Shown here piece after piece: positions 1-17,043 of a stretch of 64,000 nt of DNA. The position numbers were made by a program, and so were the translations under genes. Under the pieces are notes generated by a model. The model did not search any database. It saw only the letters and a list, made by a program, of their open reading frames with translations, and had not been told where the DNA came from. The stretch covers positions 74,760-138,759 of the forward strand of contig NZ_LRTV01000001.1 of the NCBI RefSeq assembly GCF_003408845.1, written 5' to 3'. How positions within the stretch are numbered: position 1 is the stretch's first letter; each line of letters opens with the position of its first letter. This DNA is from Gardnerella massiliensis (GTDB lineage: Bacteria > Actinomycetota > Actinomycetes > Actinomycetales > Bifidobacteriaceae).

Positions 1-1
1 A

Positions 2-157
2 CGGAACAATCAGCCGAAAACATTAGCCAGGATACCTTTAGAGCAGTTCGAAGATGTACTCTCTTACATAGATAATGAAAACATAGATAATGAAAACATA
101 GATAATGAAAACATAGATAATGAAAACATAGATAATGATACAATTACGCTTATCTGA
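2..157 (+). CDS. 3' end of an unknown gene with pentapeptide repeats (partial)
   Basis: An open frame enters from the left edge and ends at TGA 155-157, leaving 51 codons. The visible C-terminus reads roughly ARIPLEQFEDVLSYIDNEN, then further NIDNE repeats, and ends DTITLI. The repeats come from a 15-bp tandem DNA repeat at about 68-139, so a change in copy number would keep the frame. No start codon or family can be assigned because the gene begins outside the window. The frame, the repeat and the stop are seen directly; that it is expressed is inference. It could also be a decayed fragment, since another frame continues open past the stop without a clear start. Confidence 0.45.
   Translation, partial: RNNQPKTLARIPLEQFEDVLSYIDNENIDNENIDNENIDNENIDNDTITLI
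68..139. repeat. 15-bp tandem repeat (ATAGATAATGAAAAC)
   Basis: The unit ATAGATAATGAAAAC occurs four times in full and is followed by a partial fifth copy. It encodes IDNEN in the plus frame of the partial gene. The period is a multiple of three, so slippage would lengthen or shorten the protein tail without a frameshift. Confidence 0.9.
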
Positions 158-363
158 GTCTCGAAAGGCGCAGAATACGCGTTGATTCCGGAGCAATGAT
201 CATTGAATTCGGTGGAGAGGAAGAAGAAAATCAGAAGGCTAAAGCGGAGTCTCAAACCTTGATACTTGAAATACTTATATTTTGGATTGATTACCGTAGT
301 GCCTTTACACTGCCACGACGTTGAATATCAGATTGTGTAAATTAGCATTTGAAGGAGAAATCA
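158..363. other. Intergenic stretch without a convincing gene
   Basis: A 43-codon frame starting at ATG 196 and ending at 324 exists (MIIEFGGEEEEN...), but it has no good ribosome binding site and no recognisable domain. It may be debris of the preceding gene. The ribosome binding site of the next gene, GAAGGAG, lies at 351-357. Confidence 0.4.
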
Positions 364-951
364 ATGAGCTTAGATGAATTGAGGAATGATATCATCATAA
401 AGCAGAAAAAAGGATTGCCGTTTATCATGGCATCGGTGATTATATGGCTTCTGATAGTACTTGTGTCAGTTTTAGATATCAATATGGATATGAAAAATTT
501 ATTGGTATTTTGCTGTTCATGCCCATTATTACCGCTGGCTTGGCTCATTGGTAAACTTATAAAGGTGGATATCTTTTCAAAACAAAATCCACTTGGACAA
601 TTAGGTTTCCTTTTCACCTTAAATCAAATGATTTATTTATTAATCGTTATGTGGGTGTTTAGTGCGGTTCCGGGAAAGATGATTATGGTATACGCTATGG
701 TGTTTGGAGCACATTTACTGCCGTATTCATGGTTGTATAAATCAAAGGGATATACAGTTGCTGCAATTTCCATTCCGATGATTTCCTTGATTTTAGGATG
801 TGCATTAAACGGCACAACGGTTGCTGTTGCGGCATGTATTATTGAGATAGTATTTGTTTGTGTATTACATATGGAATTAAAGAAAATGGGAGATAACTAC
901 AACAAATCCCAGTTTGTAGAGCTTAGCAAGGATCAGGTTTCTATGAAATAG
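364..951 (+). CDS. DUF7010-like multi-pass membrane protein
   Basis: A 195-residue protein with a short polar N-terminus (MSLDELRNDIIIKQKKGLPF) and about six hydrophobic segments. The stretches KNLLVFCCSCPLLPLAWLIG and FGAHLLPYSWLYKSKGY resemble the DUF7010 family of small membrane proteins, best known to me from Firmicutes; this is recalled and not searched. No function is established. The ATG at 364 is preferred over TTG 349 because GAAGGAGAAA sits 7-10 bases before it. It is followed by a good terminator and stands alone. Its position beside a toxin-antitoxin pair and a recombinase suggests accessory DNA, possibly acquired from a low-GC Gram-positive. Confidence 0.7.
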   Translation: MSLDELRNDIIIKQKKGLPFIMASVIIWLLIVLVSVLDINMDMKNLLVFCCSCPLLPLAWLIGKLIKVDIFSKQNPLGQLGFLFTLNQMIYLLIVMWVFSAVPGKMIMVYAMVFGAHLLPYSWLYKSKGYTVAAISIPMISLILGCALNGTTVAVAACIIEIVFVCVLHMELKKMGDNYNKSQFVELSKDQVSMK

Positions 952-986
952 AAATCTAGATCTAAAAGCGTTATGTGTAAATAATT

Positions 987-1012
987 AAGGCGGTAGTAAT
1001 ACCGTCTTTTTT
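987..1012 (+). terminator. Rho-independent terminator of the DUF7010-like gene
   Basis: A nine-base stem (AAGGCGGTA with TACCGTCTT, one G-T pair) closes a GTAA loop and runs into TTTT. Confidence 0.8.
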
Positions 1013-1336
1013 GATGTCTAAAAAGGTTTCAGAATTCAAGGTTAAATTTTTAGAGTTCAAAGAAATAGCTTCATAGTTTAAGGGTAAGTTTTCGTTGTAT
1101 CCAACACGTGATGAAACTAGACCACTCAATTTCATGTGGAGATATTATAAAATCCAGACTATTGAATTTTCTTTAGTCTATTCTTATGTTCAAAAATCAA
1201 CCTATAGAATAGATGGAGTTATCGCCGGCATCATGGTACTTGACTGTGCTATAAAAAGCGGTAATACAAAGGCAATGCGAAGGTAACACGAACACGAAAA
1301 ACATGTATGGCAGCTGAGGGATCTTATTCATATAAA
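1013..1336. other. Intergenic region, no gene seen
   Basis: AT-rich DNA between a terminator and the operator of the toxin-antitoxin pair. A 63-codon frame at 1095-1286 has no ribosome binding site and no recognisable protein character, so I leave it uncalled. Confidence 0.4.
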
Positions 1337-1370
1337 TTGTGTTGCAATATGCGACACAATAATTTATTAT
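1337..1370 (+). promoter_or_regulatory. Inverted-repeat operator and promoter of the toxin-antitoxin operon
   Basis: TTGTGTTGCA (1337-1346) and TGCGACACAA (1350-1359) form 10-base arms around a 3-base centre, with one mismatch. A promoter fits over it: -35 TTGCAA (1343-1348), 16-base spacer, -10 TATTAT (1365-1370). RelB/DinJ-type antitoxins normally repress their own operon through such palindromes, so overlap of operator and promoter is expected. Confidence 0.55.
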
Positions 1371-1392
1371 ATGCGTATGGAGGTTGATTGAT

Positions 1393-1695
1393 ATGGCAGT
1401 TACTAAAAGTGCGAATGTGAATGTGAGAATACAAGAAAATATTAAGCAGCAGGCGGAGAAGATTTTGGAAACTATTGGAATTCCTAGGGCTACTGCTATT
1501 GACATGTTTTATCGTCAAATCATTCTTAATAAGGGTATTCCGTTTTCGCTTACTATTCCAAAGTCTCTTCCAGCGCAAGATGATATGGATGAGAAAACGT
1601 TTAACGCGTTGATGGCTAAAGGTTATGATCAGGCGGTTCGTGGTGATAGTTATCCGATAGATGATGTTTTTGAAGAGCTTGAACGAGGTCTTTAA
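1393..1695 (+). CDS. RelB/DinJ-family antitoxin
   Basis: A 100-residue protein beginning MAVTKSANVNVRIQENIKQQ. It shows the DinJ/RelB pattern: an N-terminal ribbon-helix-helix segment (NVNVRI, then IGIPRATAIDMFYRQIILNKGIPF) that dimerises and binds DNA, and an acidic C-terminal part (DDMDEKTFNALMAKGYDQ...) expected to wrap the toxin. ATG 1393 follows GGAGG at 1379-1383; a TTG at 1384 is a poorer start. The stop overlaps the toxin start by one base (TAATG), the usual coupling in these operons. Family assignment is from sequence pattern. Confidence 0.85.
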   Translation: MAVTKSANVNVRIQENIKQQAEKILETIGIPRATAIDMFYRQIILNKGIPFSLTIPKSLPAQDDMDEKTFNALMAKGYDQAVRGDSYPIDDVFEELERGL

Positions 1696-2018
1696 TGGAT
1701 GAGTATAAGATAAAAGTTACTCGTCAGGCGAAAGAGCATCTTGCACTTATTCGAGAATATATTGCCACTGAGTTAAAAGAGCCGATAATAGCTAAAAGAA
1801 TACTCGAGCTGTTGAAGTCGGAAATGATGTCTTTACAGACGATGCCTTATCGTGTGAAGTTAATTGGTGAGCAACCGTGGCGTGAGCTTGGTTTTAGAAG
1901 AATACGCGTAAAAAATTATTACGTTTATTTTTGTGTTGATGAGAATAGAAAAGAAGTTCAAATACTCGCGGTTATTTACGTGAGGAGAGACCAGGCTAAG
2001 CAACTGGAACAGTTGTAA
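1695..2018 (+). CDS. RelE/ParE-superfamily toxin
   Basis: A 107-residue basic protein. It has the RelE/ParE fold signature: N-terminal strand YKIKVTRQAKEHLALIREYI, a helical hairpin, then the C-terminal sheet with RELGFRRIRVKNYYVYFCVD and VQILAVIYVRRD. The ending IYVRRDQAKQLEQL resembles the tail typical of ParE/RelE toxins. RelE members cleave mRNA on the ribosome and ParE members poison gyrase; the sequence alone does not settle which. It overlaps the antitoxin gene by one base, so both are made from one transcript. Length is normal and the gene appears intact. Confidence 0.85.
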   Translation: MDEYKIKVTRQAKEHLALIREYIATELKEPIIAKRILELLKSEMMSLQTMPYRVKLIGEQPWRELGFRRIRVKNYYVYFCVDENRKEVQILAVIYVRRDQAKQLEQL

Positions 2019-2041
2019 TGTAATGCGCTATCAAGCCAATC

Positions 2042-2242
2042 TTAAACCTTTTAACGATAGCTTTTCCTATCGTTAAAAAGTGCACCCACTATCAATAGTG
2101 TGCACTCAAAAAAGTGTAGCTATACTACCCGTTCTCTCAATCCACGTTGAGAGTGTCGTATTGATGTCTAGGGCTTAATAGGTGGGTGCATTTTTGCCCT
2201 TGTGCAGCAGGGTTTAGCGAGGGCTATCGTTAAAAGGTTTAA
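2042..2242. repeat. 201-bp element bounded by perfect 20-bp inverted repeats
   Basis: TTAAACCTTTTAACGATAGC at 2042-2061 is the exact reverse complement of 2223-2242. Inside are three hairpins: a 12-bp stem (2049-2060 with 2067-2078), a GTGCAC-containing stem around 2080-2106, and CTCTCAA (2134-2140) with TTGAGAG (2147-2153). It has no gene. It may be a small mobile repeat, a structured RNA or a recombination target of the neighbouring serine recombinase. Confidence 0.75.
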
Positions 2243-2372
2243 TGCGAAGCGGCTGTAAGCTGGCTCGGCGTGGTTTTTGAGTGCAGTTTGGCTGTATGAG
2301 GGAACATGTCGACGCTCTAGGGTTGAGTGCACAGGATGTTAACGTTAAAAAGTGCACCCACTTTGCACCCAC
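2071..2372. repeat. Direct repeats CGTTAAAAAGTGCACCCACT and TGCACCCAC motifs
   Basis: The 20-base sequence CGTTAAAAAGTGCACCCACT occurs at 2071-2090 and 2343-2362. The nonamer TGCACCCAC occurs at 2081-2089, 2353-2361 and 2364-2372 on the plus strand and at 2182-2190 on the minus strand. The last two plus-strand copies are 11 bases apart, close to one helical turn, as expected for repeated protein-binding sites before the recombinase gene. Confidence 0.7.
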
Positions 2373-2462
2373 CCTGTGAAGTGGGGTTTTATAATTCTTC
2401 ATGCTGAATTATTCTTTTCTTTTTTGAAATAATGGTGTTCAAAAAAGGAGTAGATAATAAGT

Positions 2463-3068
2463 ATGCGCTATGGGTATGCGAGGGTGTCTACAAAGGATCA
2501 GTGTGTAGACAGACAGTTTAAGGCTTTGGAAGACAGTGGCATTATGAAAGGCTGTATTTATGTTGACAAGGTATCAGGGAAGGATTTCAATCGTAGAAAT
2601 TATTTGAGATTGTTTAGACGTTTGAGATCTGGTGATGAGTTGTTTGTGAAGTCGATTGACCGTTTAGGCAGAAACTATGATGAGATTATTGAGCAATGGA
2701 ACAAAATCACAAAAGAAAAAGAAGCAAATATTGTAGTGTTGGATTGTCCTTTGCTGGATACGAGAAAACATATAGATGGTGTAACAGGTAAGTTTATTGC
2801 AGATCTTGTATTGCAGATTTTATCGTATGTTGCTCAAGTTGAGCGAGAAAATATTCATCAAAGACAGATGGAAGGAATTCGTGTTGCCAGACAAAGAGGT
2901 GTGGTGTTTGGTAGGTCAAAGATTGAGGTTCCTGATGATTTTTATGCTGTGGCGACTAGGTGGCAGCGTGGACAGGTAAATTTGCGTGAGGGTGCAGAAA
3001 TGCTTTCTGTTTCGCATACTACGTTTTCTAAGTGGCTACATGCAAGAAAAATTGAAAAAAATTTGTAA
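2463..3068 (+). CDS. Serine recombinase (resolvase/invertase family)
   Basis: A 201-residue protein of typical resolvase/invertase length. It starts MRYGYARVSTKDQ with the catalytic serine at residue 9, and has the conserved arginine region KSIDRLGRNYDEII near residues 62-75. A long helix follows (IADLVLQILSYVAQVEREN), then a C-terminal helix-turn-helix (REGAEMLSVSHTTFSKWLHARK) for site recognition. Small serine recombinases of this type invert or resolve DNA between two short sites. Its own 3' end overlaps the first of two inverted repeats (3063-3092), the next gene encodes a surface protein, and repeats lie upstream. This suggests a dedicated DNA invertase. AGGAG at 2449-2453 is the likely ribosome binding site, about 10 bases before the ATG. 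Confidence 0.88.
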   Translation: MRYGYARVSTKDQCVDRQFKALEDSGIMKGCIYVDKVSGKDFNRRNYLRLFRRLRSGDELFVKSIDRLGRNYDEIIEQWNKITKEKEANIVVLDCPLLDTRKHIDGVTGKFIADLVLQILSYVAQVERENIHQRQMEGIRVARQRGVVFGRSKIEVPDDFYAVATRWQRGQVNLREGAEMLSVSHTTFSKWLHARKIEKNL

Positions 3069-3186
3069 ATAAATCTAGACTTTAATTTACAAAATTATGA
3101 GCATGATTTCCGCCCATTCTCTACTTATTCTATTACATATTTCAGCAAAAGTCATCAAGTAAATTAAAGCCTACTTTTATTTACAA
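3063..3186. repeat. Putative invertible switch: 28-bp inverted repeats flanking a promoter-like segment
   Basis: The left arm 3063-3090 and the right arm 3159-3186 are reverse complements at 25 of 28 positions. Each arm is itself an imperfect palindrome (outer TTGTAAAT and ATTTACAA in the left one) with centres at 3077-3078 (AG) and 3171-3172 (CT), so the cores are in inverted orientation, as needed for inversion. The left arm contains the recombinase stop codon, which inversion would not alter. The arms could instead form a long hairpin, but no T-run follows. Confidence 0.6.
3130..3158 (-). promoter_or_regulatory. Candidate promoter inside the switch, now pointing away from the LRR gene
   Basis: On the minus strand TTGATG (complement of 3153-3158), a 17-base spacer and TAATAG (complement of 3130-3135) make a passable sigma-A-type promoter. 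In the present orientation it fires toward the recombinase gene; after inversion it would fire toward the surface-protein gene at 3231. No equally good promoter is seen on the plus strand of the segment. Confidence 0.4.
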
Positions 3187-3230
3187 TTGTTTTACTCATT
3201 GTAGAGATTGATGATTAGAGGTTGATTATT

Positions 3231-6149
3231 ATGGAGAGTAGTAAGAAGAAGCGTAATTCGGTTTTGCCGATTATTGTTAGCGTTGGGATTGCAACTTCAA
3301 TGGGTGTTGTTGCAAATAGTACGCCTGAGGTAGCTTATGCGAGCAGCAATGCTGCTGCTTCTGCTTCTACTTCTACTTCTGCTACGTACGCAGATAGAAG
3401 CAGTTCTGAGAATGTCGAGAATCAAGTTATTGATATCCCAGATAAAGCTTTAAAAAGCAAACTGCTTGCAGTTATGAAAGAAAACAACTATATTTCTAGT
3501 GATGCGACAGATATTACAATTGCTGATGCTGAGAGGTTGGATGAGGCAGACTTAAGCAATAAGAATACTGATAGTATGAACGCTAGTAATACTATTCATA
3601 ATTTGAAAGGGCTTGAACACTTTAAGAACCTAACAAGACTTAATCTTGATTGTAATAATGTTACGGATTTTACTGCGTTGAAGGGTTTGACAAGCCTAAC
3701 GAAACTTAGCTTTGAAAATAACAAGGTTTCGGATCTTACTACATTAAGTGGTTTGACAAGTCTAACAGAACTTGATCTTGATTATAATAATGTTACGGAT
3801 TTCACTGCGTTGAAGGGTTTAACAAACTTAACAATACTTGATATAACTGATAACAATATTTCTGATGTTACTGGGCTGGGTGATTTGACAAATCTTATAG
3901 TACTTAATTTAAGTGATAACAATATTTCTGATATTACTGCGTTGAGTAAATTGACAAACCTACAGACATTATATTTGAGGAATAACAATATTTCTGATTC
4001 TGATATTACTGCGTTGAGTAGTTTGAAAAAAATGGATGATCTTTTTTTGGATTATAACAATATTTCTGATATTACTGCGTTGAGTAAATTGAATTTAAAT
4101 GCTCTAGGTATTGGTTATACTAAGGTTTCGGATATTAGCGTGTTGCGGAATTTTCAAGTTATTCGATCCATTGATATTAATGGTTGTAATATTCCGGATA
4201 TTAATGTGCTAGGAGAATTATCGAGCCTAGGGTACCTTGATATTAGAGATTCCAATATTTCGGATATTAGCGTGTTGCGGAATTTGCCAAAACTAATAGA
4301 GCTTCTTATTAGCGGCTCCAATATTTCGAATCTTAGTGTATTGGAGAATTCGCCAAAACTAGAATATATTTATTCTTTTGATAAGTTGTCTATTGATTCT
4401 ACTAGTCCGAGCACCAGTTTGATTATTAAAGGTAATAAACATTTAGCAAAAAACGTTGTTTTCACTGTGAAAGACAACAGTTTAGGTAGCATAAACAACG
4501 GAACGTTTACTATTAATGAAAATAAACTGCCATATTCTGGTACGGTAGAAATCAATTTTACGAATAATGGTAGTGAAGATTTTGGTTATAATGGTGCTAA
4601 GTACTTTTACCTAGGAACTATAACACTGAATCTTAATGTTCCTAAGACTGATAGTGGTGTTACGACTTGGGTTATTAAAGCCAAGATGAAGTATGAGCCG
4701 GATCCAACCCTTAAGTATCAAGAAAAGAAGGTAGAAAAAGATGCCAAAGATGGTAAGAAAGAAAATAGCAATGGTATCGAGAAAGTAGTTGTTGCTGCTC
4801 AAGACGGTGTAACTAAAGTCGGTAATAAGCAGGTTACTCATGAGGGTAAGAAGATTATTACTACAACGTATACTGTTAATCCTGATACGGGTGAGTTGAC
4901 TGATCCTCATACTTCTACGACTACAGAAACTGAGCCACCGGCTCCAACTCCTGAACCACCGACTCCTCAACCGAACCCGAATCCTGTAACACCGGGAACT
5001 GGAACACCTGGAACTGGAACACCTGGAACTGGAACACCTGGAACTGGAACACCTGGAACTGGAACTGAAACACCGGGAACTGGAACTGTAACACCAGGAC
5101 AAGGCGGAACTGGTGGAACTGTAACACCAGGACAGGGCGGAACTGAAACACCAGGAACTGTAACACCAGGAACTGGAACTGGTGGAACTGTAACACCAGG
5201 ACAGGGCGGAACTGAAACACCAGGAACTGAAACACCAGGACAGAGTGGAACTGGTGAGCCTGGGCGAGGCGGAAGTGATCAAGGCGGAAGTGAATCAGGA
5301 GGTACTGAGCACGGCAATACAAATCCTGATGGCAATACACCGGGAAGTGATACACAAGGAAGCGGTACACCGGACAGTGACACCAATCCTGGTGGTGCTT
5401 ATCCGGGTGGCGTGAATCCGAATGTGAACCCGGGTGGTACGAATCCTGGCGTGTATCCTTGGTTTAATCCTGGAAGCACTGGTGGTTCGACTACAGGTTC
5501 AAATGGCGAAGGTACCAACATTCAGTCTACGGACTCAAACAACTTTGGTAATGATTTCAATACCGGAGGCACCAATTATGGTACTGGTACTGGCGCCGAG
5601 GGTGGTACGGGTGCTGAAAATAGTGCAGGTGCTGAAAATGGTGGAGGCTCCCAAAACTCTCCGTCAGCTCAACATAAGAACGGTCAAACGCATAAAACGC
5701 ACGCTAAGAATGGTACTAACTCTAATTCGAATCCTGCTAAAACCAATAAAGCTAAAGATAATAAAGCGACTGATTCTAAACCAAGCGGCTCTGAAACTGC
5801 TGGTTCTAAAGCAAATGGTTCTAAGCCAAGCGGTTCTAAGAAGACTAGTGCAAAAGCCGGCGCTAACGCTAGTAAGAATAATGCTGAAGCCAAGCGTAAA
5901 GTAAAGGTGAACAGCAAAGAAAGCAGCAAGGCGAGCAACGGTACACGTAACAAGGCAAACTCTAACTCCAAGTCTTCTGAATCTGCTAATAATTCCAGCA
6001 AGACTACCGAGTCGAGCAAGTCGTCAGCTTCTAACAGATTTGTTGCTATTATGTCCGCGTTGGGTGTGTTTATAATTGCGGTGCTTGCTGCTTTCGCAGC
6101 ATTCTTTGCAAAAAAGCATCGTGATAATTCTCGGCGTGACAGCGAGTAA
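3231..6149 (+). CDS. Leucine-rich-repeat surface protein with membrane anchor
   Basis: A 972-residue exported protein. Residues 1-40 are a signal peptide (basic KKKR, hydrophobic core, then VAYASS). About a dozen internalin-like LRRs of ~22 residues follow (about 115-385; pattern LTNLxxLxLxxNNISDITAL), then a beta-rich segment and a G5-like stretch (GVTKVGNKQVTHEGKKIITT). The next part is low complexity: Pro/Thr/Gly (GTPGTGTPGTG), Gly/Asn and Lys/Ser-rich. It ends in one membrane helix and a basic tail (FAKKHRDNSRRDSE). No LPXTG motif is visible, so membrane anchoring is inferred. ATG 3231 follows TAGAGG. LRR surface proteins usually bind host or neighbour-cell ligands. The putative invertible promoter immediately upstream suggests phase-variable expression. 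Confidence 0.85.
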   Translation: MESSKKKRNSVLPIIVSVGIATSMGVVANSTPEVAYASSNAAASASTSTSATYADRSSSENVENQVIDIPDKALKSKLLAVMKENNYISSDATDITIADAERLDEADLSNKNTDSMNASNTIHNLKGLEHFKNLTRLNLDCNNVTDFTALKGLTSLTKLSFENNKVSDLTTLSGLTSLTELDLDYNNVTDFTALKGLTNLTILDITDNNISDVTGLGDLTNLIVLNLSDNNISDITALSKLTNLQTLYLRNNNISDSDITALSSLKKMDDLFLDYNNISDITALSKLNLNALGIGYTKVSDISVLRNFQVIRSIDINGCNIPDINVLGELSSLGYLDIRDSNISDISVLRNLPKLIELLISGSNISNLSVLENSPKLEYIYSFDKLSIDSTSPSTSLIIKGNKHLAKNVVFTVKDNSLGSINNGTFTINENKLPYSGTVEINFTNNGSEDFGYNGAKYFYLGTITLNLNVPKTDSGVTTWVIKAKMKYEPDPTLKYQEKKVEKDAKDGKKENSNGIEKVVVAAQDGVTKVGNKQVTHEGKKIITTTYTVNPDTGELTDPHTSTTTETEPPAPTPEPPTPQPNPNPVTPGTGTPGTGTPGTGTPGTGTPGTGTETPGTGTVTPGQGGTGGTVTPGQGGTETPGTVTPGTGTGGTVTPGQGGTETPGTETPGQSGTGEPGRGGSDQGGSESGGTEHGNTNPDGNTPGSDTQGSGTPDSDTNPGGAYPGGVNPNVNPGGTNPGVYPWFNPGSTGGSTTGSNGEGTNIQSTDSNNFGNDFNTGGTNYGTGTGAEGGTGAENSAGAENGGGSQNSPSAQHKNGQTHKTHAKNGTNSNSNPAKTNKAKDNKATDSKPSGSETAGSKANGSKPSGSKKTSAKAGANASKNNAEAKRKVKVNSKESSKASNGTRNKANSNSKSSESANNSSKTTESSKSSASNRFVAIMSALGVFIIAVLAAFAAFFAKKHRDNSRRDSE
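4995..5066. repeat. 15-bp tandem repeat encoding GTGTP
   Basis: Unit GGAACTGGAACACCT, four full copies plus a partial one, followed to about 5240 by degenerate copies. It lies in the stalk of the LRR protein; the period keeps the frame, so copy number may set stalk length. Confidence 0.85.
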
Positions 6150-6198
6150 TTCAGGTGCTAATTAATGTTAATAATTGAATAGTTAAATACTGAATAAT

Positions 6199-6243
6199 AG
6201 AAAGCCTCACTTCATGATAGTTTCTCGCGGAGTGAGGCTTTCT
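6199..6243 (+). terminator. Terminator after the LRR protein gene
   Basis: AGAAAGCCTCACT (6199-6211) pairs perfectly with AGTGAGGCTTTCT (6231-6243). The T-run is short and interrupted, so it may work in both directions. Confidence 0.65.
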
Positions 6244-6333
6244 GCTATTACGATTGAATTATGCGTTTATTGTATGAAGTCGCAGATTTGTGATTGGGTA
6301 ATCGCTGAACAAATGTTGTAGTTTATTACCTCA

Positions 6334-6624
6334 CTATAATTTTGATACTAAATCGTTTAGTACTTTGTCGAATTCAGACATTCTGTTTTCTTGATTAAAG
6401 AATGGAAGACCTATAATCTTGTATCCTCTTCCTAAAATATCGTTAATCTTGTAGTTATTCTCAATCTGCCCTAAGAATTTTTCTTTCCACTCATCTTCAA
6501 ATAAAAGTTGACTACCTTTAGGCTCAACATATGCTTGATATGTTTTAACATCCTCATACTCTTTCTCACGAATAAAGAGCAAGTAATCAGGCTCAAAACG
6601 TTCAAAAGAGTTGCGGCAAATAAG
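6334..6624 (-). pseudogene. Remnant like the C-terminus of a type III restriction (Res) subunit
   Basis: The minus strand encodes a tail with FERFEPDYLLFIREKE, TYQAYVEPKGSQLLFEDEWK and a final IIGLPFFN...MSEFDKVLNDLV. This pattern matches, from memory, the nuclease-end of DEAD/DEAH-box type III restriction subunits, which are about 900-1,000 residues long; only about 95 remain. The TTG at 6582 is not a credible start because the matching sequence continues upstream. A duplicated 14-bp segment (6623-6650) follows and no helicase part exists. I read it as a decayed remnant rather than a small gene. Confidence 0.6.
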
Positions 6625-6728
6625 CGATGCTAAAAGAGCGATGCTAAAAGTTAGAAAATAACTATTATTCTCAATTATTATTCAACTATTGTTCAAGCAT
6701 TATCTGAGTGTTGTTCAAGCATTATCTG
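6623..6728. repeat. Short tandem duplications beside the restriction remnant
   Basis: AGCGATGCTAAAAG is duplicated in tandem (6623-6636, 6637-6650). TTGTTCAAGCATTATCTG occurs at 6689-6706 and 6711-6728 with a 22-bp period. The stretch 6650-6888 otherwise holds no gene. Confidence 0.75.
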
Positions 6729-6746
6729 CGATTTTATGTGATTTTC

Positions 6747-6760
6747 TGTGAACGTTCACA
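6747..6760. promoter_or_regulatory. Perfect 14-bp palindrome, LacI-type operator candidate before pyk
   Basis: TGTGAACGTTCACA is a perfect palindrome about 130 bases before the pyruvate kinase start. Its form fits LacI-family operators, and resembles what I recall of the motif predicted for the global bifidobacterial regulator AraQ. No regulator gene lies next to it, so the factor would act in trans. Confidence 0.5.
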
Positions 6761-6888
6761 AAACGCCGCATAAATACAATATGCGGTCACAATCCGTTGA
6801 TACACTAGAAAGCGGAATTGGGCGTTTTACGCTTGTATCGTTAAAGCGCTCATGAAAAATAAACAGAAATAGAAAATAGGTAGGCATT

Positions 6889-8328
6889 ATGCGTAAAGCC
6901 AAAATCGTTGATACTATTGGTCCAGCTACCGAATCGTTGGAAGGTATTACCAAGCTTGTTGAAGCTGGTATGGATGTTGCTCGTTTGAACCGTTCTCACG
7001 GCACTCCTGAAGATCATTTGCGTGTGTACAACAACGTTCGCGCAGCTTCCAAGTCCACCGGCCGCAATGTTGCTGCTCTTGTTGATTTGCAGGGTCCAAA
7101 GATTCGCTGCGGTTGGTTCAAGAAGAACGCTGATGGTGAAGATAAGGTTTATTTGGAAGAAGGCCAGGAGTTCATCATCACTACCGATGATGTTGAAGGC
7201 GATGAACACCGCACTTCTACCACTTTCAAGGGTTTGCCAGGTGATTGCCACGCAGGCGATCCAATCCTTATCGATGATGGTAAGGTTCGCCTTGAAGTAA
7301 CCAAGGTTGAAGGCAACGACGTTCACACCAAGGTTATTGTTGCTGGCCCAGTTTCCAGCCACAAGGGCATTAACCTCCCAGGTGTTGCAGTTTCGCTCCC
7401 AGCTTTGACTGAAAAGGATGAGGCTGATCTTCGTTGGGCTATTCGCACTGGCGCTGATATTATCGCTATGTCCTTCGTGCGTTTCGCTACCGATATTGAT
7501 CGCGCTCACGAAATCATGGACGAAGAAGGTCGTCGTATTCCGATCGTTGCCAAGATTGAGAAGCCACAGGCTGTTGAAAACTTGGAAGAGATTGTTAAGA
7601 CCTTCGATGGCATTATGGTTGCTCGTGGTGACATGGCAGTGGAAATGCCTCTTGAAGAGGTTCCACTGGTTACCAAGCGTTGCATCGAGCTTTCTCGTCG
7701 CTACGCAAAGCCAGTTATCGTTGCTACTGAAGTTCTTGGCACCATGGTCAACTCTCCAGTTCCAACCCGTGCAGAAGCCTCTGACTGCGCTAACGCTGTT
7801 CTCGACGGTGCTGACGCAACCATGACTTCTAACGAAACTGCTGTTGGTAAGTATCCTGCAGTAACTGTTCAAACCATGTCTCGCATTTCTCAGTATGCTA
7901 CTGAGCATGGCTACGATCGTATTCCTGCTGTTGAGCTTGATATGTCCAGCACTGGCGCCGTATCTTCTGCTGCCGTTGATTTGGCTGACAAGCTTAACGC
8001 TAAGGCTATTGTTGCCTACACTCAGACTGGTCGCACGGTTCATCGCATTTCTCGCGAACGTCCAACCGCTCCAATTTACGGCTTGACCAACAATGAGCAC
8101 ACCTATCGTTGGTTGGCTTTGAGCTGGGGTACTGAAGGCTTCTTGATTGATGAAGATTACCATGACATGAATCGTCACGATTTGATGATCTTCACCGACA
8201 AGGTTCTTCGCGAAGCTGGTAAGGTTTCCGACGGCGATCAGATTGTTATCTTGAGCACTGCTCAGGGTGAACGTCAGGCTGGTCGTACGGATTCCATCTA
8301 CGTACACACCGTTGGTGCTTGCGACTAA
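6889..8328 (+). CDS. pyk: Pyruvate kinase
   Basis: A 479-residue cytosolic enzyme converting phosphoenolpyruvate and ADP to pyruvate and ATP. It starts MRKAKIVDTIGPA, carries the substrate-loop Arg in VARLNRSHG, the active-site motif IVAKIEKPQAVENL, the metal-binding region IMVARGDMAVEMPLEEV and the segment PTRAEASDCANAVLDGADA. The C-terminal alpha/beta domain (about 340-479) is present, so length and domains are complete. NRSHG replaces the usual NFSHG and TSNETA the usual LSGETA; these are probably lineage variants. It stands alone with a candidate operator upstream. In the bifid shunt it makes the second ATP of the lower pathway. Confidence 0.97.
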   Translation: MRKAKIVDTIGPATESLEGITKLVEAGMDVARLNRSHGTPEDHLRVYNNVRAASKSTGRNVAALVDLQGPKIRCGWFKKNADGEDKVYLEEGQEFIITTDDVEGDEHRTSTTFKGLPGDCHAGDPILIDDGKVRLEVTKVEGNDVHTKVIVAGPVSSHKGINLPGVAVSLPALTEKDEADLRWAIRTGADIIAMSFVRFATDIDRAHEIMDEEGRRIPIVAKIEKPQAVENLEEIVKTFDGIMVARGDMAVEMPLEEVPLVTKRCIELSRRYAKPVIVATEVLGTMVNSPVPTRAEASDCANAVLDGADATMTSNETAVGKYPAVTVQTMSRISQYATEHGYDRIPAVELDMSSTGAVSSAAVDLADKLNAKAIVAYTQTGRTVHRISRERPTAPIYGLTNNEHTYRWLALSWGTEGFLIDEDYHDMNRHDLMIFTDKVLREAGKVSDGDQIVILSTAQGERQAGRTDSIYVHTVGACD

Positions 8329-8408
8329 TCTTAACTAAGTTTCGTATATGTGCAATTAATCTAATTTGATTATTTGTAAGCATATACGTAGGAATATTTA
8401 GTTTGTAT

Positions 8409-8443
8409 AATGCGCGCTTTCTGTTTTGCAGATTGCGCGCATT
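8409..8443 (+). terminator. Possible pyk terminator hairpin
   Basis: AATGCGCGC (8409-8417) pairs with GCGCGCATT (8435-8443). The stem is strong but no T-run follows. Confidence 0.4.
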
Positions 8444-8502
8444 ACTATTAGTGAGTACCTATCTATCGCTCTATTTGCGACACGCCAAAATGTGTGAGGT
8501 AT

Positions 8503-8530
8503 TTGCATACGGCTAAAAGTGTGCTATAGT
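8503..8530 (+). promoter_or_regulatory. tRNA promoter
   Basis: -35 TTGCAT (8503-8508), 16-base spacer, -10 TATAGT (8525-8530). The tRNA-Pro gene has a near-identical arrangement at 35332-35360. Confidence 0.6.
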
Positions 8531-8565
8531 CAACAAGTCGCGCAAAAACGCGGAAAATTAAAAAT

Positions 8566-8639
8566 GCCCCTGTATCCCAATTGGTAGAGGAAACAGCCTC
8601 AAAATCTGTGCAGTGTGAGTTCGAGTCTCACCGGGGGCA
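8566..8639 (+). tRNA. tRNA with CAA anticodon (Leu by anticodon) but short variable loop
   Basis: The acceptor stem GCCCCTG/CGGGGGC (one T-G pair), T arm GTGAG-TTCGAGT-CTCAC and discriminator A are perfect. The anticodon arm ACAGC/TCTGT has a C-T mismatch at its inner end; the loop is CTCAAAA, giving CAA at 8600-8602. The D arm fits best as a three-pair stem (TCC/GGA) with an 11-base loop, as in class II tRNAs. The variable loop is only GCAGT, whereas bacterial leucine tRNAs have a long variable arm, as does tRNA-Leu(GAG) at 49650-49736. CCA is not encoded. Identity as a leucine acceptor is therefore doubtful. Confidence 0.8.
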
Positions 8640-8646
8640 CGTGCAC

Positions 8647-8680
8647 AACGTCACTTAGCTTGCTGAGTGACGTTTTTTTT
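8647..8680 (+). terminator. Terminator after the CAA tRNA
   Basis: AACGTCACTTAGC pairs with GCTGAGTGACGTT (one T-G pair) followed by a run of eight T. Confidence 0.9.
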
Positions 8681-8785
8681 ATTTCGTTTTAATATTCAGA
8701 CATAAATGATAAAGCGTATAATAATAAAAGCATTTTCGCACAATGAAACAATGAATGTGCTGTACGTAATGTGAAAGGAACGAAG

Positions 8786-10462
8786 ATGATCCACAGTGCA
8801 CAATTGCAAATAAGTGAGCGTAAAAAAAGTAATTATGCTCGCAAATTAATTAATAATTACAAGCGTAATCTAATGCTTGTGTCATGTGCTGCAATTGCTG
8901 CTGTAGCAACAGTGTTAATGTGCGTTTTCACTATTGTTCCTGCCTCTTCAGCATTTGCTTCGACTAAATCAACAAACGGTCTTCCGCCAAAAGGCGTTAT
9001 TGTTACGGCTTTTCAACAGAACTGGAGGAGTATTGCCAAGGAGTGCAAAGAAACGTACGGTCCTGAAGGAGTTAAGTACGTTCAGGTGTCGCCTCCGGAA
9101 GATCATATTAAAGGTAAGGCTTGGTGGACTTCTTACCAGCCTGTGAGCTACAATCTAAATTCTAAACTTGGCACTGAAGCTGAGTTTAAGAATATGATTA
9201 CTACGTGTAAAGCAGCAAAGGTTGGAATTATTGTAGATGCCGTAATTAATCACACAACTGGTGCTGGTAATAAGGATACTGTGGGCGTTGGTGGAAGCAA
9301 ATATGATGCTGCTAACCAGAGCTATCCAGACGCTGGTTACACAAAAGATGATTTTCATCAAATAGATAAAGATATTTACACGTATAGGGATGCTCAAGTA
9401 GTTTGGAATTATCGTTTAGTTGGTTTGCTTGATTTGGATACGTCTAAGCCGCATGTGCAGCAAACTCTTGGTAACTATTTTGCAAAATTGCTAAAAATGG
9501 GAGTTGCTGGCTTCCGCGTGGACGCTGTAAAGCATATTGCGCCAAATGAAATGAAAGCTATTAAGAAGGCTGCATCCGAGGCGAGTGGGATTAAGCCTGA
9601 AAACATTTGGTGGATGCAGGAAACGATTGGTGACAGCAATGGTGCGAAAGAAAATCAGCCAGATAAATATGTTGGAACTGGTGAAGTAGACGAGTTTGAG
9701 TATTCGTACCGTTTGCGCAATTATTTCTCTGGATCGATTGACAATTTGAAGCATATTACAGATGGTCTTATTCCTAATAAGAGTGCTGCTATTTTTGTTA
9801 CCAATTGGGATACTGAGCGAGATAATGCCACAAGCGTTCTTACTTACAAAGATGGCAAGTTGTATGAGCTTGCGAATGCTTTTATGCTTGCTTACCCGTA
9901 TGGTACGCCAAATGTTTATTCTGGATACAAGTTTAGTGAGCGTGACGAAGGTGCTCCTGGCGCAACTGAAACGTCTGTTCCTGATGCAAGCTGTGGCAAG
10001 GATTCAAAGTGGCAGTGCACTCAACGTTGGACTTCGATTCGCGGCATGATTGGTTTCTACAACGCTGTGAAAGATACGAAAGTAACTAAGTGGCAAGATG
10101 ATGAAAGTAATAATATTGCTTTTAGCCGCGGAAATAAGGGTTTCTTCGCTATTAATAATGACGATAAACAAAATGATGTTAAGTACAATACTGACTTGCC
10201 AGATGGCGAGTATTGCAATGTTTACGCATCAAAGATTTGCGATAAAACCGTAACCATTAGCGGTGGGAAAGTTGAAACTACGATTCCTGCGCATTCTGCA
10301 GTGGCTTTGCATATTAAGGCTGTGAAGCATTTTGGTAACAGTGGGGTTGTTAATAAAATATTGCTAATATTTGCTGCTATTTTTATAGCTTTGGTTGTTA
10401 CCTTGGCTTTGCGTTTTAAGAAAGGAAAAGACGATTTCAAAAATAAAAGTACTAACAATTGA
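8786..10462 (+). CDS. Secreted, membrane-anchored alpha-amylase (GH13_32-like)
   Basis: A 558-residue enzyme for internal alpha-1,4 bonds of starch and glycogen. A cytoplasmic N-terminal stretch and a hydrophobic export segment (about 29-58, ending SSAFAST) precede the catalytic barrel. The GH13 regions are DAVINH, GFRVDAVKH (nucleophile D246), IWWMQETIG (acid/base E279) and VTNWDTER (D342). The His normally before the last Asp is Trp here. A beta domain follows, then a C-terminal helix (about 525-548) with a KK-rich tail, so the enzyme is likely held on the cell surface. ATG 8786 follows AAAGGA; GTG 8771 is less likely. It closely resembles residues 40-500 of the next protein. A -10-like TATAAT is at 8717-8722. 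Confidence 0.9.
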   Translation: MIHSAQLQISERKKSNYARKLINNYKRNLMLVSCAAIAAVATVLMCVFTIVPASSAFASTKSTNGLPPKGVIVTAFQQNWRSIAKECKETYGPEGVKYVQVSPPEDHIKGKAWWTSYQPVSYNLNSKLGTEAEFKNMITTCKAAKVGIIVDAVINHTTGAGNKDTVGVGGSKYDAANQSYPDAGYTKDDFHQIDKDIYTYRDAQVVWNYRLVGLLDLDTSKPHVQQTLGNYFAKLLKMGVAGFRVDAVKHIAPNEMKAIKKAASEASGIKPENIWWMQETIGDSNGAKENQPDKYVGTGEVDEFEYSYRLRNYFSGSIDNLKHITDGLIPNKSAAIFVTNWDTERDNATSVLTYKDGKLYELANAFMLAYPYGTPNVYSGYKFSERDEGAPGATETSVPDASCGKDSKWQCTQRWTSIRGMIGFYNAVKDTKVTKWQDDESNNIAFSRGNKGFFAINNDDKQNDVKYNTDLPDGEYCNVYASKICDKTVTISGGKVETTIPAHSAVALHIKAVKHFGNSGVVNKILLIFAAIFIALVVTLALRFKKGKDDFKNKSTNN

Positions 10463-10562
10463 GAATAGTGTTAAGTTTTAATTGAAGAGTATGCTTCAAT
10501 CAGAATCGTACTAACATTATTACAATCTTTAGTTACTTTTTGCAATATTGTCAATATGTCGG

Positions 10563-10571
10563 TGATATAAT
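10563..10571 (+). promoter_or_regulatory. Extended -10 promoter of the amylase-pullulanase gene
   Basis: TGATATAAT at 10563-10571 is an extended -10 element (TGN before TATAAT). It lies 28 bases before the leader hairpin, giving a transcript leader of about 120 bases. The other pullulanase gene has the equivalent TGGTACAAT. Confidence 0.55.
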
Positions 10572-10598
10572 TACCTCCGCTTATATTGCGCATTTATG

Positions 10599-10631
10599 CG
10601 ATGGCTAGCAACATAGTTGTACTAGCCATCG
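10599..10631 (+). promoter_or_regulatory. Leader hairpin of the amylase-pullulanase mRNA
   Basis: CGATGGCTAG (10599-10608) pairs perfectly with CTAGCCATCG (10622-10631); the loop contains CATAGTTG. A hairpin with the same loop octamer and a different, co-varying stem lies at 17078-17112 before the next pullulanase gene. Downstream both share TTTGC-TATT-AGCTAT and the ribosome binding site GGAGGAAAGGA. Confidence 0.6.
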
Positions 10632-10700
10632 TTTGCGTATTTAAGCTATTAGTGCGTCCAAAGAAGAAACGCGCTGATACCAATGGAGGAAAGGAAACTG

Positions 10701-13700
10701 ATGAGTCATCGTCGACACTTTGCATCGAAGATGGTTGCTGTTGCTGCGTCTGTTGCAATGCTTGTAACTGGTTTTGCTGTTACTGGTAGTGCAAACGCTG
10801 CTAGCGAAAGCAATGAAAATCTAACTCTTAACCGTAAGGGTGTTATTGTTACTGCATTCCAGCAGAATTGGAAGAGTATTGCTAAGGAATGTGAGCAAAC
10901 TTATGGTCCTGAGGATGTGAAGTATGTGCAGGTGTCTCCTCCGAATGAGCATGTAAAGGGTACTCAGTGGTGGACTTCTTACCAGCCTGTGAGCTATAAG
11001 CTTGATTCTAAACTTGGCACTAAAGCTGAGTTTAAGAATATGATTACTACGTGCAAAAATGCAGGCGTTGGAATCATTGCTGATGCCGTGATTAATCACA
11101 TGACTGGTGCCGGTAATAAGGATACTGTTGGCGTTGGTGGAAGTGAATACGATGCGGCTGCGCAGACTTTCAAAACAGCTGGATATACTAAGGATGATTT
11201 CCATCAGAGTGCTGAAAATATTAAAAATTACAAGAATGCTGAAGAAGTTTGGACTCACAGGCTTGTAGGCTTACTTGATTTGGATACTTCTAAGCCGCAT
11301 GTGCGCGAGACATTAGGTAAGTACTTTGCTCATTTGCTGGAGCTAGGTGTTGCTGGCTTCCGTATAGATGCAGTAAAGCATATTTCTCCAACAGATATGG
11401 CTGCAATTAAAGCTGAAGCTGCAAAACAATCTGGTAAAAAGGCAGATGACATTTGGTGGATGCAGGAGACGATTGGTGATCCTTCTGAAGCTAAAGAAAT
11501 ACAGCCTAGTGAACATTTAAAGGAAGGTGAAGTTAACGAATTCCAATATTCTTACCGATTAAAGAGCGATTTTTATGGTTCAATTTCGAATCTAAAGAAT
11601 ATTACTGATGGGCTTGTTAAAAGCGATAAAGCTTCGATTTTCGTTACTAATTGGGATACTCCTCGCGAAAATTATGTGCGCACACTTACCTATAAGGATG
11701 GTCCTCGCTACGAGCTTGCAAATGCGTTTATGCTTGCCTATCCGTATGGAAATCCAAATATTTACTCGGGGTATAGGTTTGATGCAAAGAATAAAGACGA
11801 TGGTGCGCCTAATGCGACCGATACGTCTGTTCCAGATGTAGATTGTTCTCCAACAACTGGCTGGCAGTGCACTCAGCGTTGGACTTCGATTCGCGGAATG
11901 GTCGGCTTCTTTAATGTTGTAAATGGTGCGAAAGTCACCAATTGGCAGGAGAGTGACAACAATAACATTGCATTTAGCCGCGAGAAGAAGGGCTTCTTAG
12001 CAATCAACAATACGCCAAATGCAAAGAGAGTTTTGTATAAGACTGATTTGCTTGACGGCGAGTATTGCAATGTGTATGAGGCTGGAAACTGTTCTAAGAC
12101 TGTTAAAGTTACAGGTGGTAAAGTTGCTGCGACTATTGCTCCTTATTCTGCAATTGCTTTGCATGTTGGTGCTAAAGCCGATGCCGCCAGTAAAACTGGT
12201 CCAGCACGTGATAAATCTGATCCAAAATACAATGTTGACGATGTTAAAGACCAGTCAACAACGGTATATTTCAATGCTAAAAATAAAGCAGGTAATCCAA
12301 GCTCAGTAAATATTCATTATCAAATAAGTGGTGATAATTGGACTGTAGCTCCTGGATTGCCAATGCGCAAAGTTTGTGGCAATTGGTTTGCAAAGACTAT
12401 TACTAATCGTGGTGAATTTAAAGCTGTATTTAACGACGGTGTAAATAAGTGGTATCACGTAAATGGCCAGAATGGCGATTTCACTATTCCTGCTAATGCA
12501 AAGAATTATGTAGTCAACGAAAATCTTGGCGTAGATACTAATGTTTCCAACGTTCCTTGTAAAGCAGAATCTTCAAAGCCTTCTGCGTTAAAGACGAAGA
12601 TTGTTATTCATTATAAGCAAAGATATGGTGACAATCGCAATATGGGCGTTTATATCTGGGGTCTTAAAGATGCAGATGGTAAAGATGCTCCTGCTAAATG
12701 GCATGAGTTTAATGGTCAAGACGTTTTCGGTAAGACTTACACAGTTGAGGCTGATGGTACTTACGAGAGTGGAAAAGTCGGATTTATTATCACCACTGAT
12801 CCAGATACAGTGGGATGGAATAAGGATGGTGGAAATCGTAATATTTCGCAAATAGAAGATGGTGTTGGCGAAGCTTGGGTTTACGGAGGAGATTCAAATA
12901 CTTTTGCCGAACCACCTTCTGAAGTTGCTGACAAGCTTAATAACCTCAAAACCTTAAACGTTACTGTTCACTACCGCAGAACAAACAAGGATTACGCTGG
13001 TTGGAATCTTTGGACTTGGTACGGTAGTAAGAAGGGTGTAAAGCGAGATTTTACGGCTCATGATGATTTCGGCAAGATTGCAGAATACACGTTTACAGAT
13101 AATAACGGTGTAAAAGATCCGAAGTTTATTGTGCGATATTCCATGCAAGGCAATGATTGGGTTGCTAAAGATCCTGGTGAAGGTGATCGCGCGATTCCTG
13201 CAAAGGCAATCAATTTAAGCCAAGATGGTAAAACTGGCAACGCTGAAATTTGGCTTATGCAGGGCGACAGTAGAGTTTACTTAAGTCCAAACGTAATCAA
13301 CACGAAGGCTAATGCTATTAATGCTGATATTACGTCTTTAAAGGAATTTACTGTAAATGTGAGCGGTGACCCTTCAGAGATTAAGAAGGATGACGTAACT
13401 ATAACTGATGTTACAGATTCAAAGAAAGATAAACATAAGGCAGTAGATATTTCGCAAGTTGCTGTTGTAAATAATAAGATTGTAATCACTGCAAAAAGCG
13501 ACTTAGATCTTAAGAAAATGTATGAAATCAACATTAAGGGTGTTGGTGGAATGCCTAAAACAGTGTCTGTGTCAACTGTTAAGGGATCTAAGATTGTTCG
13601 CACTGATGAGTTCGATCAAAAGTACGCGTACGATGGCAATGACTTGGGTGCTGTTGTAAGTGGTAATTCTACGACTTTCAAGCTTTGGGCACCAACTGCT

Positions 13701-16700
13701 ACGAAAGTGGAGTTGGTAACTTATTCTGGCACTGATGAAAATTCTCCAGAAGCTAAAACACAAGATATGAAGCTTGAAAGCAATAATAGCGTGTGGAGTA
13801 TTACTACAAGCGATGCAAAAGCTGGAACTGCTTACACGTACAAGGTTCATTTTGCAGATGGTGCTGTTAATAATTCTCCAGACCCTTATGCAAAAGCTGC
13901 TGTGCGAAATGGAATGAGATCCGTTGTATTCGGTGGCAGTATGGCGACATCTGTAACTCGTATGGCACCGTTTGGTAAGCGTCCAACTGATGCGACTATT
14001 GCAGAAATGAATATTCGTGACTTCTCAATTCACGAAAGTTCTGGCGTGAGAGAAAAGAATCGTGGCAAATATCTCGGTGTAATTGAACCTGACACTAAGA
14101 ATGGGAACAAGCCAACTGGTTTGGATTATTTGAAGTCCCTAGGCATCACTCACGTGCAAATCATGCCAATGTATGATTTTGGTTCTGTGAACGAAGCAGG
14201 AGATTTGGGTTATGTTGCTACTAACGACAAAAATAATCCTCATCAAAACTGGGGCTACGATCCAATCAATTACAACGTTCCAGAAGGCTCGTATGCGTCT
14301 GATTCAGCAAATCCTGCTACGCGTATTACTGAGCTAAAGAAAATGGTTGAAGGTCTACATAAGGCTGGTTTGCGCGTGATTATGGATGTGGTTTATAACC
14401 ACGTTTATAACGCGCAAAAGAACGCTTTTGGCCAAACTGTGCCTGGCTACTACTTCCGTTACAACGATGACGGCAGCTTATCTAATAGATCTGGTTGCGG
14501 AAACGACACTGCTTCAGAGCGCAAAATGATGCGCAAGTATATTGTTGATTCTGTAAAGTATTGGGCTAATGAGTACGGTATTGACGGCTTCCGTTTTGAT
14601 TTGATGGGATTGATTGACCTTGAAACCATGAAGGAAGTGCGTGAAGCTGTTCATGCAATTGATCCAAGCTCGATTATTCTTGGTGAAGGCTGGGATATGA
14701 GCCAATTGCCTTATGGAAACCGCACTATTCAGCCTAATGCGTATAAGCTTGCAGATAATAATGGCATTGCATTCTTTAACGATTCATTCCGTGACGCTGT
14801 AAAAGGCCATGGAGATGATGGTGTTGCTGGATTCGTGTCTGGAAACAGAGGTAGCGACAATCTGGTAATGCAAAATCTTTACGGATGCCAGCCTGGAAAC
14901 TCAAGTTGCACTGGTCGCCATTATGCGAATGCAGGTCAGACTGTGCAATATGTTGAAGCTCACGACAATCTTAATCTTTACGATAAGTTGAAGAAATCTT
15001 TGCTTCGTGAGACAGATCAGAATATTAAGAAGCGAGTAATGCTTGCTAATTCGCTTGTAATGTTTGCTCATGGCATGCCATTCTTTGAGCTTGGTCAAGA
15101 GTTCTTACGAAGCAAGAATAGTAATGCCAATAGTTACAATGCTGGCGATGGCGACAATTCCGTTAAGTGGGATTTGGTTAATAAGAATTCCGATGCTGTT
15201 GAGTACTTCAAGGCATTGATAAAGTTAAGAAACGAGATTCCAGCTTTACGCGATTCTACATATTCTGAAGTTAACAAGAATATGCATTGGATTAAGAGCA
15301 GTGATGGAATTAATGCGTTTAGCGTTGACAGCAATAATAAAACGTATGTGTTTATTTTCAATGCTAATAGTGATGAGTCTACTGTGAATATTGGCAAAGG
15401 AAAGTATCGCGTGCGCATTGCCGATGGAAAGGCTAACGGCAATGATGAGTCAAATTGGCCTGAAGTATCGGTAGATGATAATGGAAATTACAAGGTTGTT
15501 GCTCTTTCTACTGCAGTGCTTGTGAAGGATGCTGAAAAGAATAAGGATGAGAATTCTATTGATCTTGAAAAGGTCGCTGAATATAAATTGCATCCTGCTG
15601 ACGTAAGTGAACTAGTTAATGGTCCTGTGAATCCAAAGCCTAAGCCAGAGCCGGAACCTGGTCCTCAGCCACAGCCAGCTCCTGGTCCTGTGACGCCGAC
15701 ACCTCAGCCGCCTGCTCCGTCTCCGGTGCCAACGCCTCAACCACAGCCGCATCCTACTCCGAATCCGCCAGCTCCGGCCCCTAAGCCTGGTCCAGTGGTT
15801 CCGCCAACACCGCAGCCAGCTCCTGCACCTGGACCCGTGACTCCAGCTCCTGCACCTGGACCGCAGCCAGTTCCTCAGCCTGGTTCTGACTCAACGCCTG
15901 GTGATTCCGGTTCTGGCTCTCAACATGGCCCACAGCAACCTTCTGTAGAAACTCATAATCCTCAGCAAGGTAGTACTAAGTCGGAGAATCCAAAGCAAGG
16001 AAATACGCAGCCTTCAGTTAAAAACAAGCCTGAGTCCGCTCCTGCTAATAAGACTCAAGAGCATGTTAATTCTGAAGATACTGCTAAATCCGAAAACAAT
16101 GGAAAGACTGGCAAATCTGAGAGTGCTGAAACGCATGAAAATGTTGGAAAGTCTAACAATTCCACGAACACTGGAAAAGATGCAAACGCTGAAAACACTG
16201 AGAAGCCTGCCCAGGTTGAGAATCATACTCAGAAGACTGAGACTTCCACTTCAGTACCATCTACTTCAGCATCATCTGCACCGTCTGCTACGGCTCCATC
16301 TGCTCCGGCTTCATCTGCTCCGGCTCCTGAAGCTCCTGCAACAGTTAAGCAGCTTAAGCCAGAATTAAAGGGTACTCTTACTGTAGGTAGCAATGATGTT
16401 GCAACAGCCGGCGTGGTAAACAATGTGAGTATTCATGTTGTAAACAGTGATTTTACCGAACGGTTGAAGAAAGATGGTGTGGTTTATGCATACGCGTACA
16501 TTTACTCCACGCCGCGCTTACTTAAGAGTGCAAATGGTTCTAAGTATGTAACTGTTCGCATGGTGAATGGCGTTCCTCAGTTTGATGCAATGTTCCCAGC
16601 TGGATACTCCGGGAAACACACAGTTGTATTGGTTGATGAGCAAGGTAAGCAACTAGCTTGGACTGAAATAACAGTAGTAAATAATGCTGTTAATCAGCAT

Positions 16701-16829: not shown

Positions 16830-16904
16830 AATTCAAAGCAATGCTTTTGAAGCTTACGTTTTATGTTTTGAACGTATTATTTCTTAAGCACTGATATTAA
16901 AATC

Positions 16905-16945
16905 GAGGGCAATGGCATCGGTGGTGTTATTGCCCTCATTTTTTT
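16905..16945 (+). terminator. Terminator of the amylase-pullulanase gene
   Basis: GAGGGCAAT pairs with ATTGCCCTC and a run of seven T follows. The loop GGCATCGGTG is shared with the terminator at 20720-20761. Confidence 0.92.
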
Positions 16946-17043
16946 GATTTTTAATTCTGTTTGTGTGCTGTTAACAATAGTTTATTTACGCACATATATG
17001 CGCTAGGGTGAGCTACACAGTTGTTATGATGTCAGTATTGAAG

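Follow-up and report, generated by a model that had tools for sequence, protein, structure and literature searches.

A putative compact invertible promoter between a small serine recombinase gene and an LRR surface protein gene in Gardnerella

Background

Among the described systems closest to the locus considered here is the Hin/hix flagellar switch of Salmonella (Hin, Gin, Pin). Common features are a small serine recombinase, short inverted sites with an asymmetric two-base core, an invertible promoter, and linkage of the recombinase gene to the segment. The Hin enhancer is 65 bp long and has Fis sites at both ends (PMC3798978). Unlike Hin/hix, our locus has the recombinase gene outside a segment of about 95 bp, and its recombinase resembles Sin and gamma-delta resolvase more than it does the solved invertases. 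The master DNA invertase Mpi of Bacteroides fragilis, also a serine recombinase, acts on many distant invertible promoters situated before surface operons, whereas our system is a single pair of sites beside its own recombinase gene. In Clostridioides difficile, the CwpV switch depends on a recombinase of the tyrosine type. The control of CwpV is described as a novel genetic switch, and the CwpV, pdcB and other C. difficile switches resemble ours in that inversion occurs before surface or signalling genes of a Gram-positive bacterium.

Sin/Bin3 is among the nearest solved relatives, and plasmid proteins about 50% identical to our recombinase have a related site of the GTAcAC type. However, all four plasmid loci considered (4/4) have a single upstream site and no downstream pair. 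In these loci (L177-L180) the upstream site is of the GTACAC or GTATAC type, and two of them lie near cfr.

A survey of gut invertons from 2025 described new groups, including ones from Firmicutes_A and Actinobacteriota, as well as links to invertases. Its main text does not contain the word "serine", and the site family described below may be among its groups. Reversible colony variants are known in Gardnerella, and a word search of a paper on such phase-variable variants (PMC11287997) finds neither recombinase nor inversion. Slipped-strand variation has been cited, in a review, for a Gardnerella sialidase. Our literature search yielded no paper on the switch considered here or its site family, and no earlier description of the compact inverton variant.

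Results

The recombinase and the repeats at the end of its gene

The region considered, below called the window, is the whole analysed stretch of 64,000 nucleotides. A gene on its plus strand (2463..3068) encodes a small serine recombinase of 201 aa, a putative DNA invertase (Pfam Resolvase, PF00239, E 1.8e-27). Residues S9, R7, R67 and R70, which we take to be the catalytic residues of small serine recombinases, are invariant across 13 aligned recombinase rows. The Resolvase domain, these serine and arginine residues and the length of about 200 aa place the protein among the small serine recombinases. The closest solved chains are Sin/Bin3 (E 1e-26) and gamma-delta resolvase (7.6e-25); solved entries named DNA-invertase rank behind the resolvases (1.5e-14 and weaker). 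The NCBIfam Mpi equivalog NF009949 scores 50.1 bits at a cut-off of 272, and thus the protein does not belong to the Mpi type. No second copy was found in the draft genome at E <= 0.001. In the genus, 24 of 101 genomes have any recombinase match, and the close match (96%) is confined to G000, G062 and G095. The frame is intact and 96% conserved in near relatives.

A pair of 28-bp inverted repeats at 3063-3186 had been proposed at the end of this gene from the sequence alone, and the repeats proved to be well above background. The arm 3063-3090 and the reverse complement of 3159-3186 coincide in 25 of 28 positions, and in the repeat search the arms stretch to 35 nt at 86% identity. Among inverted repeats of the window whose arms are 30-200 bp apart, it ranks first. 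It scores 22.5, whereas the shuffle maximum is 14.0 (40 dinucleotide shuffles of the 64 kb, 200 shuffles of 2001-4500). The recombinase ORF 2463-3068 ends, as also proposed, inside the first repeat, the stop codon TAA being at 3066-3068. The asymmetric AG/CT core, described in the sequence-only reading as the form of a small serine invertase site, is corroborated by the recurrence of facing 28-bp AG-core sites in relatives.

In the AG/CT-centred register of these relatives, candidate recombination site 1 occupies 3064..3091 on the plus strand (core AG 3077-3078; matrix score 23.7; pattern match), and site 2, inverted, occupies 3158..3185 on the minus strand (core CT 3171-3172; matrix score 23.8), the window being one of the 12 loci on which the matrix was trained. 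In this register the sites match in 24 of 28 positions, the figure of 25/28 holding for the 3063/3159 register. They are separated by 66 bp, with centres 94 bp apart, and the putative invertible segment, core to core, is 3077..3172; its spacing class is common to L153, L039, L041 and L050.

The pair sits between the recombinase gene and the LRR surface protein gene. The site pattern with at most three mismatches occurs at two places in the window, both downstream of the recombinase gene and none upstream, and at the same two places in the entire draft genome (13 contigs, 1.62 Mb). As the draft genome has just two sites, although it contains other LRR genes, a shufflon with sites at several silent surface genes was rejected for it. 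A single 35-base site-like match (89%) in G092, beside a gene resembling rsmG by eye, was taken as chance: the stricter pattern does not recover it, and that genome has no recombinase match.

Site pairs beside related recombinases

Relatives were sampled by a recombinase scan of genome contigs (69 loci), from IMG/VR (4, 1 and 2), by a plasmid search that gave Enterococcus faecalis pGTC3 (L153), and by a profile search that matched 15 of 396 Actinomycetota genomes. The 90 loci formed 62 clusters at 85% identity; 4 had too little DNA and 58 were scored. The first look at GTAGAC-like core pairs, in which facing was required by construction, produced the 28-bp consensus TGG-N8-GTAGAC-N8-CCA. The site matrix was built from 12 training loci including the window and then run freely on the remaining loci, a pair being defined as two sites scoring at least 5 within 500 bp 3' of the gene. 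In 550 shuffles of the test stretches, the 95th and 99th percentiles of the matrix score were 4.2 and 7.7.

Two downstream sites were observed in 29 of the 58 clusters, one site in 4 and none in 25. The matrix scan of 525 bp upstream of the recombinase gave no pair in 57 clusters, and no pair was found in 169 random stretches of the same loci. Of the 46 clusters that contributed no training locus, 17 showed a pair, facing inward in 16 cases; the exception, L087, has a palindromic GTATAC core with no polarity. The matrix was built without the test clusters, though the inverted repeats of some had already been inspected.

Alternatively, the recombinase could act as a resolvase, with the repeat pair serving as its res-type regulatory and crossover site and the LRR gene a bystander. 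This would agree with the ranking of solved relatives given above, and with the single related site some 170-180 nt upstream of the start codon in the four plasmid genes. However, the plasmid recombinases form a separate tree branch (support 100), and the sites of the window are downstream and facing. Crossover or accessory sites 5' of the gene, as in resolvase loci, were found neither in the window nor in the 525 bp upstream in 57 clusters, as far as sites of the pattern or matrix type are concerned. Serine recombinases acting on facing sites cause inversion, not resolution. We consider the resolvase role unlikely and inversion of the segment the preferred reading.

In another alternative, no recombination takes place and the repeats act as a hairpin in RNA or DNA, for example as a terminator or attenuator where the recombinase gene ends. 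Indeed, the region folds as RNA at -23.4 kcal/mol (z -4.1). However, the loop is about 68 nt long, no terminator-like site was called at the arms, and in relatives the arms often pair poorly while the GTAGAC core, the facing orientation and the helical spacing are kept. In L053, L105 and L051, 10 to 13 of the central 18 positions pair, and the palindromic GTAGAC core is retained. A hairpin as the function of these repeats is highly improbable, and the pair is better read as recombination sites. Because the arms of many true pairs have diverged, the matrix replaced an unguided test, in which the top inverted repeat in 300 bp 3' of the recombinase exceeded 60 shuffles (p<0.05) in 11 of 42 loci.

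Some loci have their sites elsewhere. In L044, facing sites 115 bp apart were found at a distance of 3.3 kb, and a large ORF, whose product looks secreted by eye, follows them after 68 bp; in L045 a pair 94 bp apart is 1.4 kb away, with no surface gene directly behind it. L064 has sites below the threshold, and a YSIRK/Rib protein is present. No site was found in recombinase loci of the Collinsella aerofaciens type, no pair at the threshold used in phage records with the nearest recombinases (L174-L176), and no two-site pattern in IMG/VR. L155 has three sites 3' of the recombinase, the second and third being 129 and 152 bp from the first, and they are followed by a Cna_B protein of the collagen-binding type. 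The Paraeggerthella loci L056 and L058 match as far as the site core and are unrelated beyond it, L056 having one partial site and no second. In L091 and L096 facing sites persist and the recombinase frames look broken.

In a quick tree the window belongs to a group of 15 rows (support 98); a pair is present in 11 of these rows, 2 have a distant one, and 2 have neither. The nearest rows with a named host are from Bacillota, which suggests a lateral origin of the window's recombinase. The pair/no-pair label takes 14 changes over the whole tree, and therefore pairs are often lost or missed.

In 9 of the 29 clusters (the window, L036, L037, L038, L050, L053, L086, L153, L155), the gene behind site 2 encodes adhesin-type domains or a cell-wall anchor; in L153 and L038 this surface gene comes after an Rrf2 regulator. 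In four more (L041, L051, L091, L168) the gene looks secreted by eye. A NusG-like or sugar-transferase setting, a likeness to Mpi, was observed in 3 of 29 (L161 and L164 by Pfam, L159 by alignment). The targets are a GGDEF protein in L062 and a radical SAM protein in L163; the remaining 11 clusters either lack a clear surface target or offer too little DNA. In the actinobacterial (Actinomycetota) loci L161 and L164 the switch precedes a NusG-like gene, accompanied in L164 by a sugar-transferase gene, which recalls capsule switches.

Helical spacing of the sites

Centre distances of facing pairs shorter than 160 bp (27 clusters) are 74, 93, 94 (five), 96, 104, 105, 105, 106, 109, 114, 114, 115, 116, 117, 124, 125, 126, 126, 127, 129, 137, 138 and 140 bp. 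Thus the spacing changes in steps of about one helical turn: 94, 105, 115, 126, 138 bp. Compared with jittered distances, the phasing of the 27 pairs has p 5e-5, the floor of 20,000 draws; L096 (206 bp) exceeds the 160-bp limit and was excluded. The idea of phasing came from the training loci, and the p of 0.007 for the 16 test pairs alone is the fairer figure. For all 34 pairs, unselected, R at 10.5 is 0.56, and among periods from 5 to 20 the best is 10.85. The off-phase pairs are L043/L046 (109), L155 (129) and the excluded L096 (206). For inversion on so short a loop, the recombinase dimers should share the same face of the helix. Helical phasing also matters for the Hin enhancer (PMC3798978).

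The LRR gene and exchange of the target

The next gene (3231..6149, plus strand) encodes, as the sequence-only reading had it, an LRR surface protein, here of 972 aa (Pfam LRR_4, E 4e-32). It consists of internalin-like repeats, a stalk rich in Thr, Pro and Gly, a C-terminal membrane segment and a basic tail; no LPXTG motif is seen in the translation. The NCBIfam internalin_A model gives 123.5 bits, below its cut-off of 1600. The start codon is 45 bp from site 2, and AGAGG at 3217..3221 (plus strand) is a likely ribosome-binding site. Homologues are distant, the best outside the own genome having 31% identity, with matches in 3 of 11 other genomes searched.

Counterparts of the recombinase were found in Gardnerella greenwoodii 00703Dmash (L034), Gardnerella vaginalis 1500E (L035) and an IMG/VR contig (L103). 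L034 and L103 have the same recombinase (96%) and both sites, with cores 95 bp apart in L034. Right behind site 2 of L103 is a gene whose 337-aa product has a SpaA domain and an LPXTG anchor. The same gene, different from the LRR gene, follows site 2 in L034, where the contig stops within it. The window and L103 align closely from about 2033 to site 2, and the similarity is lost past the site 2 core. Since homology ends at site 2 and the next genes differ, the switch is the conserved part and the target has been exchanged. At 183-5471 of L103, two or three ORFs of large serine recombinases and one that resembles a lysin (by eye) precede the module, an arrangement like that of an integrated mobile element.

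This exchange, together with the weak promoter of the segment (below), would also fit a former switch that is now locked, either by decay of the promoter or by capture of the LRR gene outside its control. However, the intact and conserved recombinase frame, the retention of both sites with their AG cores, and the short distance from site 2 to the LRR start codon argue against it. A locked state is improbable, and we prefer a working switch.

Window positions 66-140 contain a 15-bp tandem repeat, ACATAGATAATGAAA; a RelB/ParE-type toxin-antitoxin pair (1384-2018) is located right before the switch module; the intergenic stretch 2300-2386 has several similar copies in genomes of the genus. Just left of the window (L132 62-102, G000:C1 about 74,090), at least 10 consecutive G, a possible slipped-strand tract, abut an assembly gap; the gap comprises several hundred N and extends to the window start. 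A scan of window positions 1-20000 with Rfam gave no match except a tRNA.

Candidate promoters of the segment

The sequence-only reading suggested a minus-strand promoter TTGATG-17-TAATAG. This pair is indeed present (3158-3153 and 3135-3130), but even the best-scoring promoter pair in the segment does no better than 300 shuffled versions of that segment (p = 0.19). The higher-scoring candidate ATGACT-17-TAGAAT (3127..3155, minus strand; boxes 3155-3150 and 3132-3127) overlaps the suggested one and would face the LRR gene once inverted. In L034, ATGGCT-18-TAAAAT is observed at the same place on the minus strand (best promoter against shuffles, p 0.80); both pairs start two bases inside site 2. 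Promoters were scored with E. coli sigma-70 weights.

In relatives the site core reads TAGACT or TAGACA, a fair -35 box. In 20 of 31 loci a -10 box is positioned 16-18 nt from the site core at one end of the segment (p<0.05 for each locus by 400 shuffles), with a combined p of 1.4e-16 if the loci are independent; the shuffle tests assume this independence, and L043/L046 and L159/L161 are near relatives. Such core-embedded promoters point toward the next gene in 6 of 20 loci (L153, L039, L064, L088, L105, L167) and away from it in 14, and both directions are as expected if assemblies catch either state. Neither the window (p 0.72) nor L034 (p 0.62) has a promoter using the site core as -35. With this layout absent from the window, the Gardnerella promoter is left as a weak candidate.

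The OFF state proposed for the assembled orientation is only weakly indicated. It relies on a minus-strand pair no better than chance (p 0.19), with a similar and equally weak pair in the near relative L034, and is for this reason only plausible.

Traces of inversion

Predicted reversed junctions of the window and L034 gave no matches in IMG/VR, and neither did those of L105. A search with site 1 gave one contig and no reversed copy, and further similarity searches for reversed copies gave nothing useful. Where orientations of the same locus could be compared, in L043/L046 and L159/L161, they were the same within each pair. The contig of strain 1500E (L035) terminates at ...AAATCTAGG (ending TCTAGG), the last base common to both orientations of an L034-like locus. 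The break is where it would be if the assembler had met two continuations, which may be a hint of inversion. The segment and gene were not found elsewhere in the 1500E assembly, save for 117 bases that match the anchor region. A search with the outer half of site 2 yielded 8 hits, its control 13.

Discussion

The locus is very probably an invertible promoter controlling the LRR gene, judging by sequence comparison. More fully, we assign a probability of about three in four to a self-contained phase switch, composed of the recombinase, its facing sites and a promoter segment that would control the LRR gene. The recombinase would bind the two inverted 28-bp sites just beyond its own gene and cut at the AG dinucleotides, inverting the approximately 95 bp between them. 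In one orientation the promoter would read into the LRR gene; in the other it would face the opposite way, toward the 3' end of the recombinase gene. Inversion at the locus is strongly supported by the comparison, and is very likely because relatives of the recombinase carry the same facing, phased site pairs. From the position of the segment, we infer its control over the LRR gene. Thus the original suggestion of an invertible promoter holds in part: the module of recombinase, facing sites and surface gene is found again in numerous distantly related bacteria, frequently ahead of surface protein genes; the promoter pair is a weak candidate, and a reversed copy was not found.

Tentatively, and with more doubt than confidence, these loci may be seen as widespread, horizontally moving minimal invertons, each made of one recombinase and two sites about 9-13 helical turns apart. 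With even phasing, two recombinase dimers could come together on a short loop, for which an enhancer is perhaps unneeded. Many members may cut inside the -35 box, so that both orientations would keep the -35 and the -10 would switch sides. The window may then be a Gardnerella offshoot in which the promoter moved inward and differing adhesin genes were captured behind the same switch.

A recombinase-driven switch before an internalin-like protein is a testable cause of surface variation in such bacteria. The family rules, namely the site consensus, the helical spacing and the crossover in the -35 box, would let such switches be found and their state be read from assemblies. Finally, this would be a compact inversion system with no long segment, and as such suited to study.
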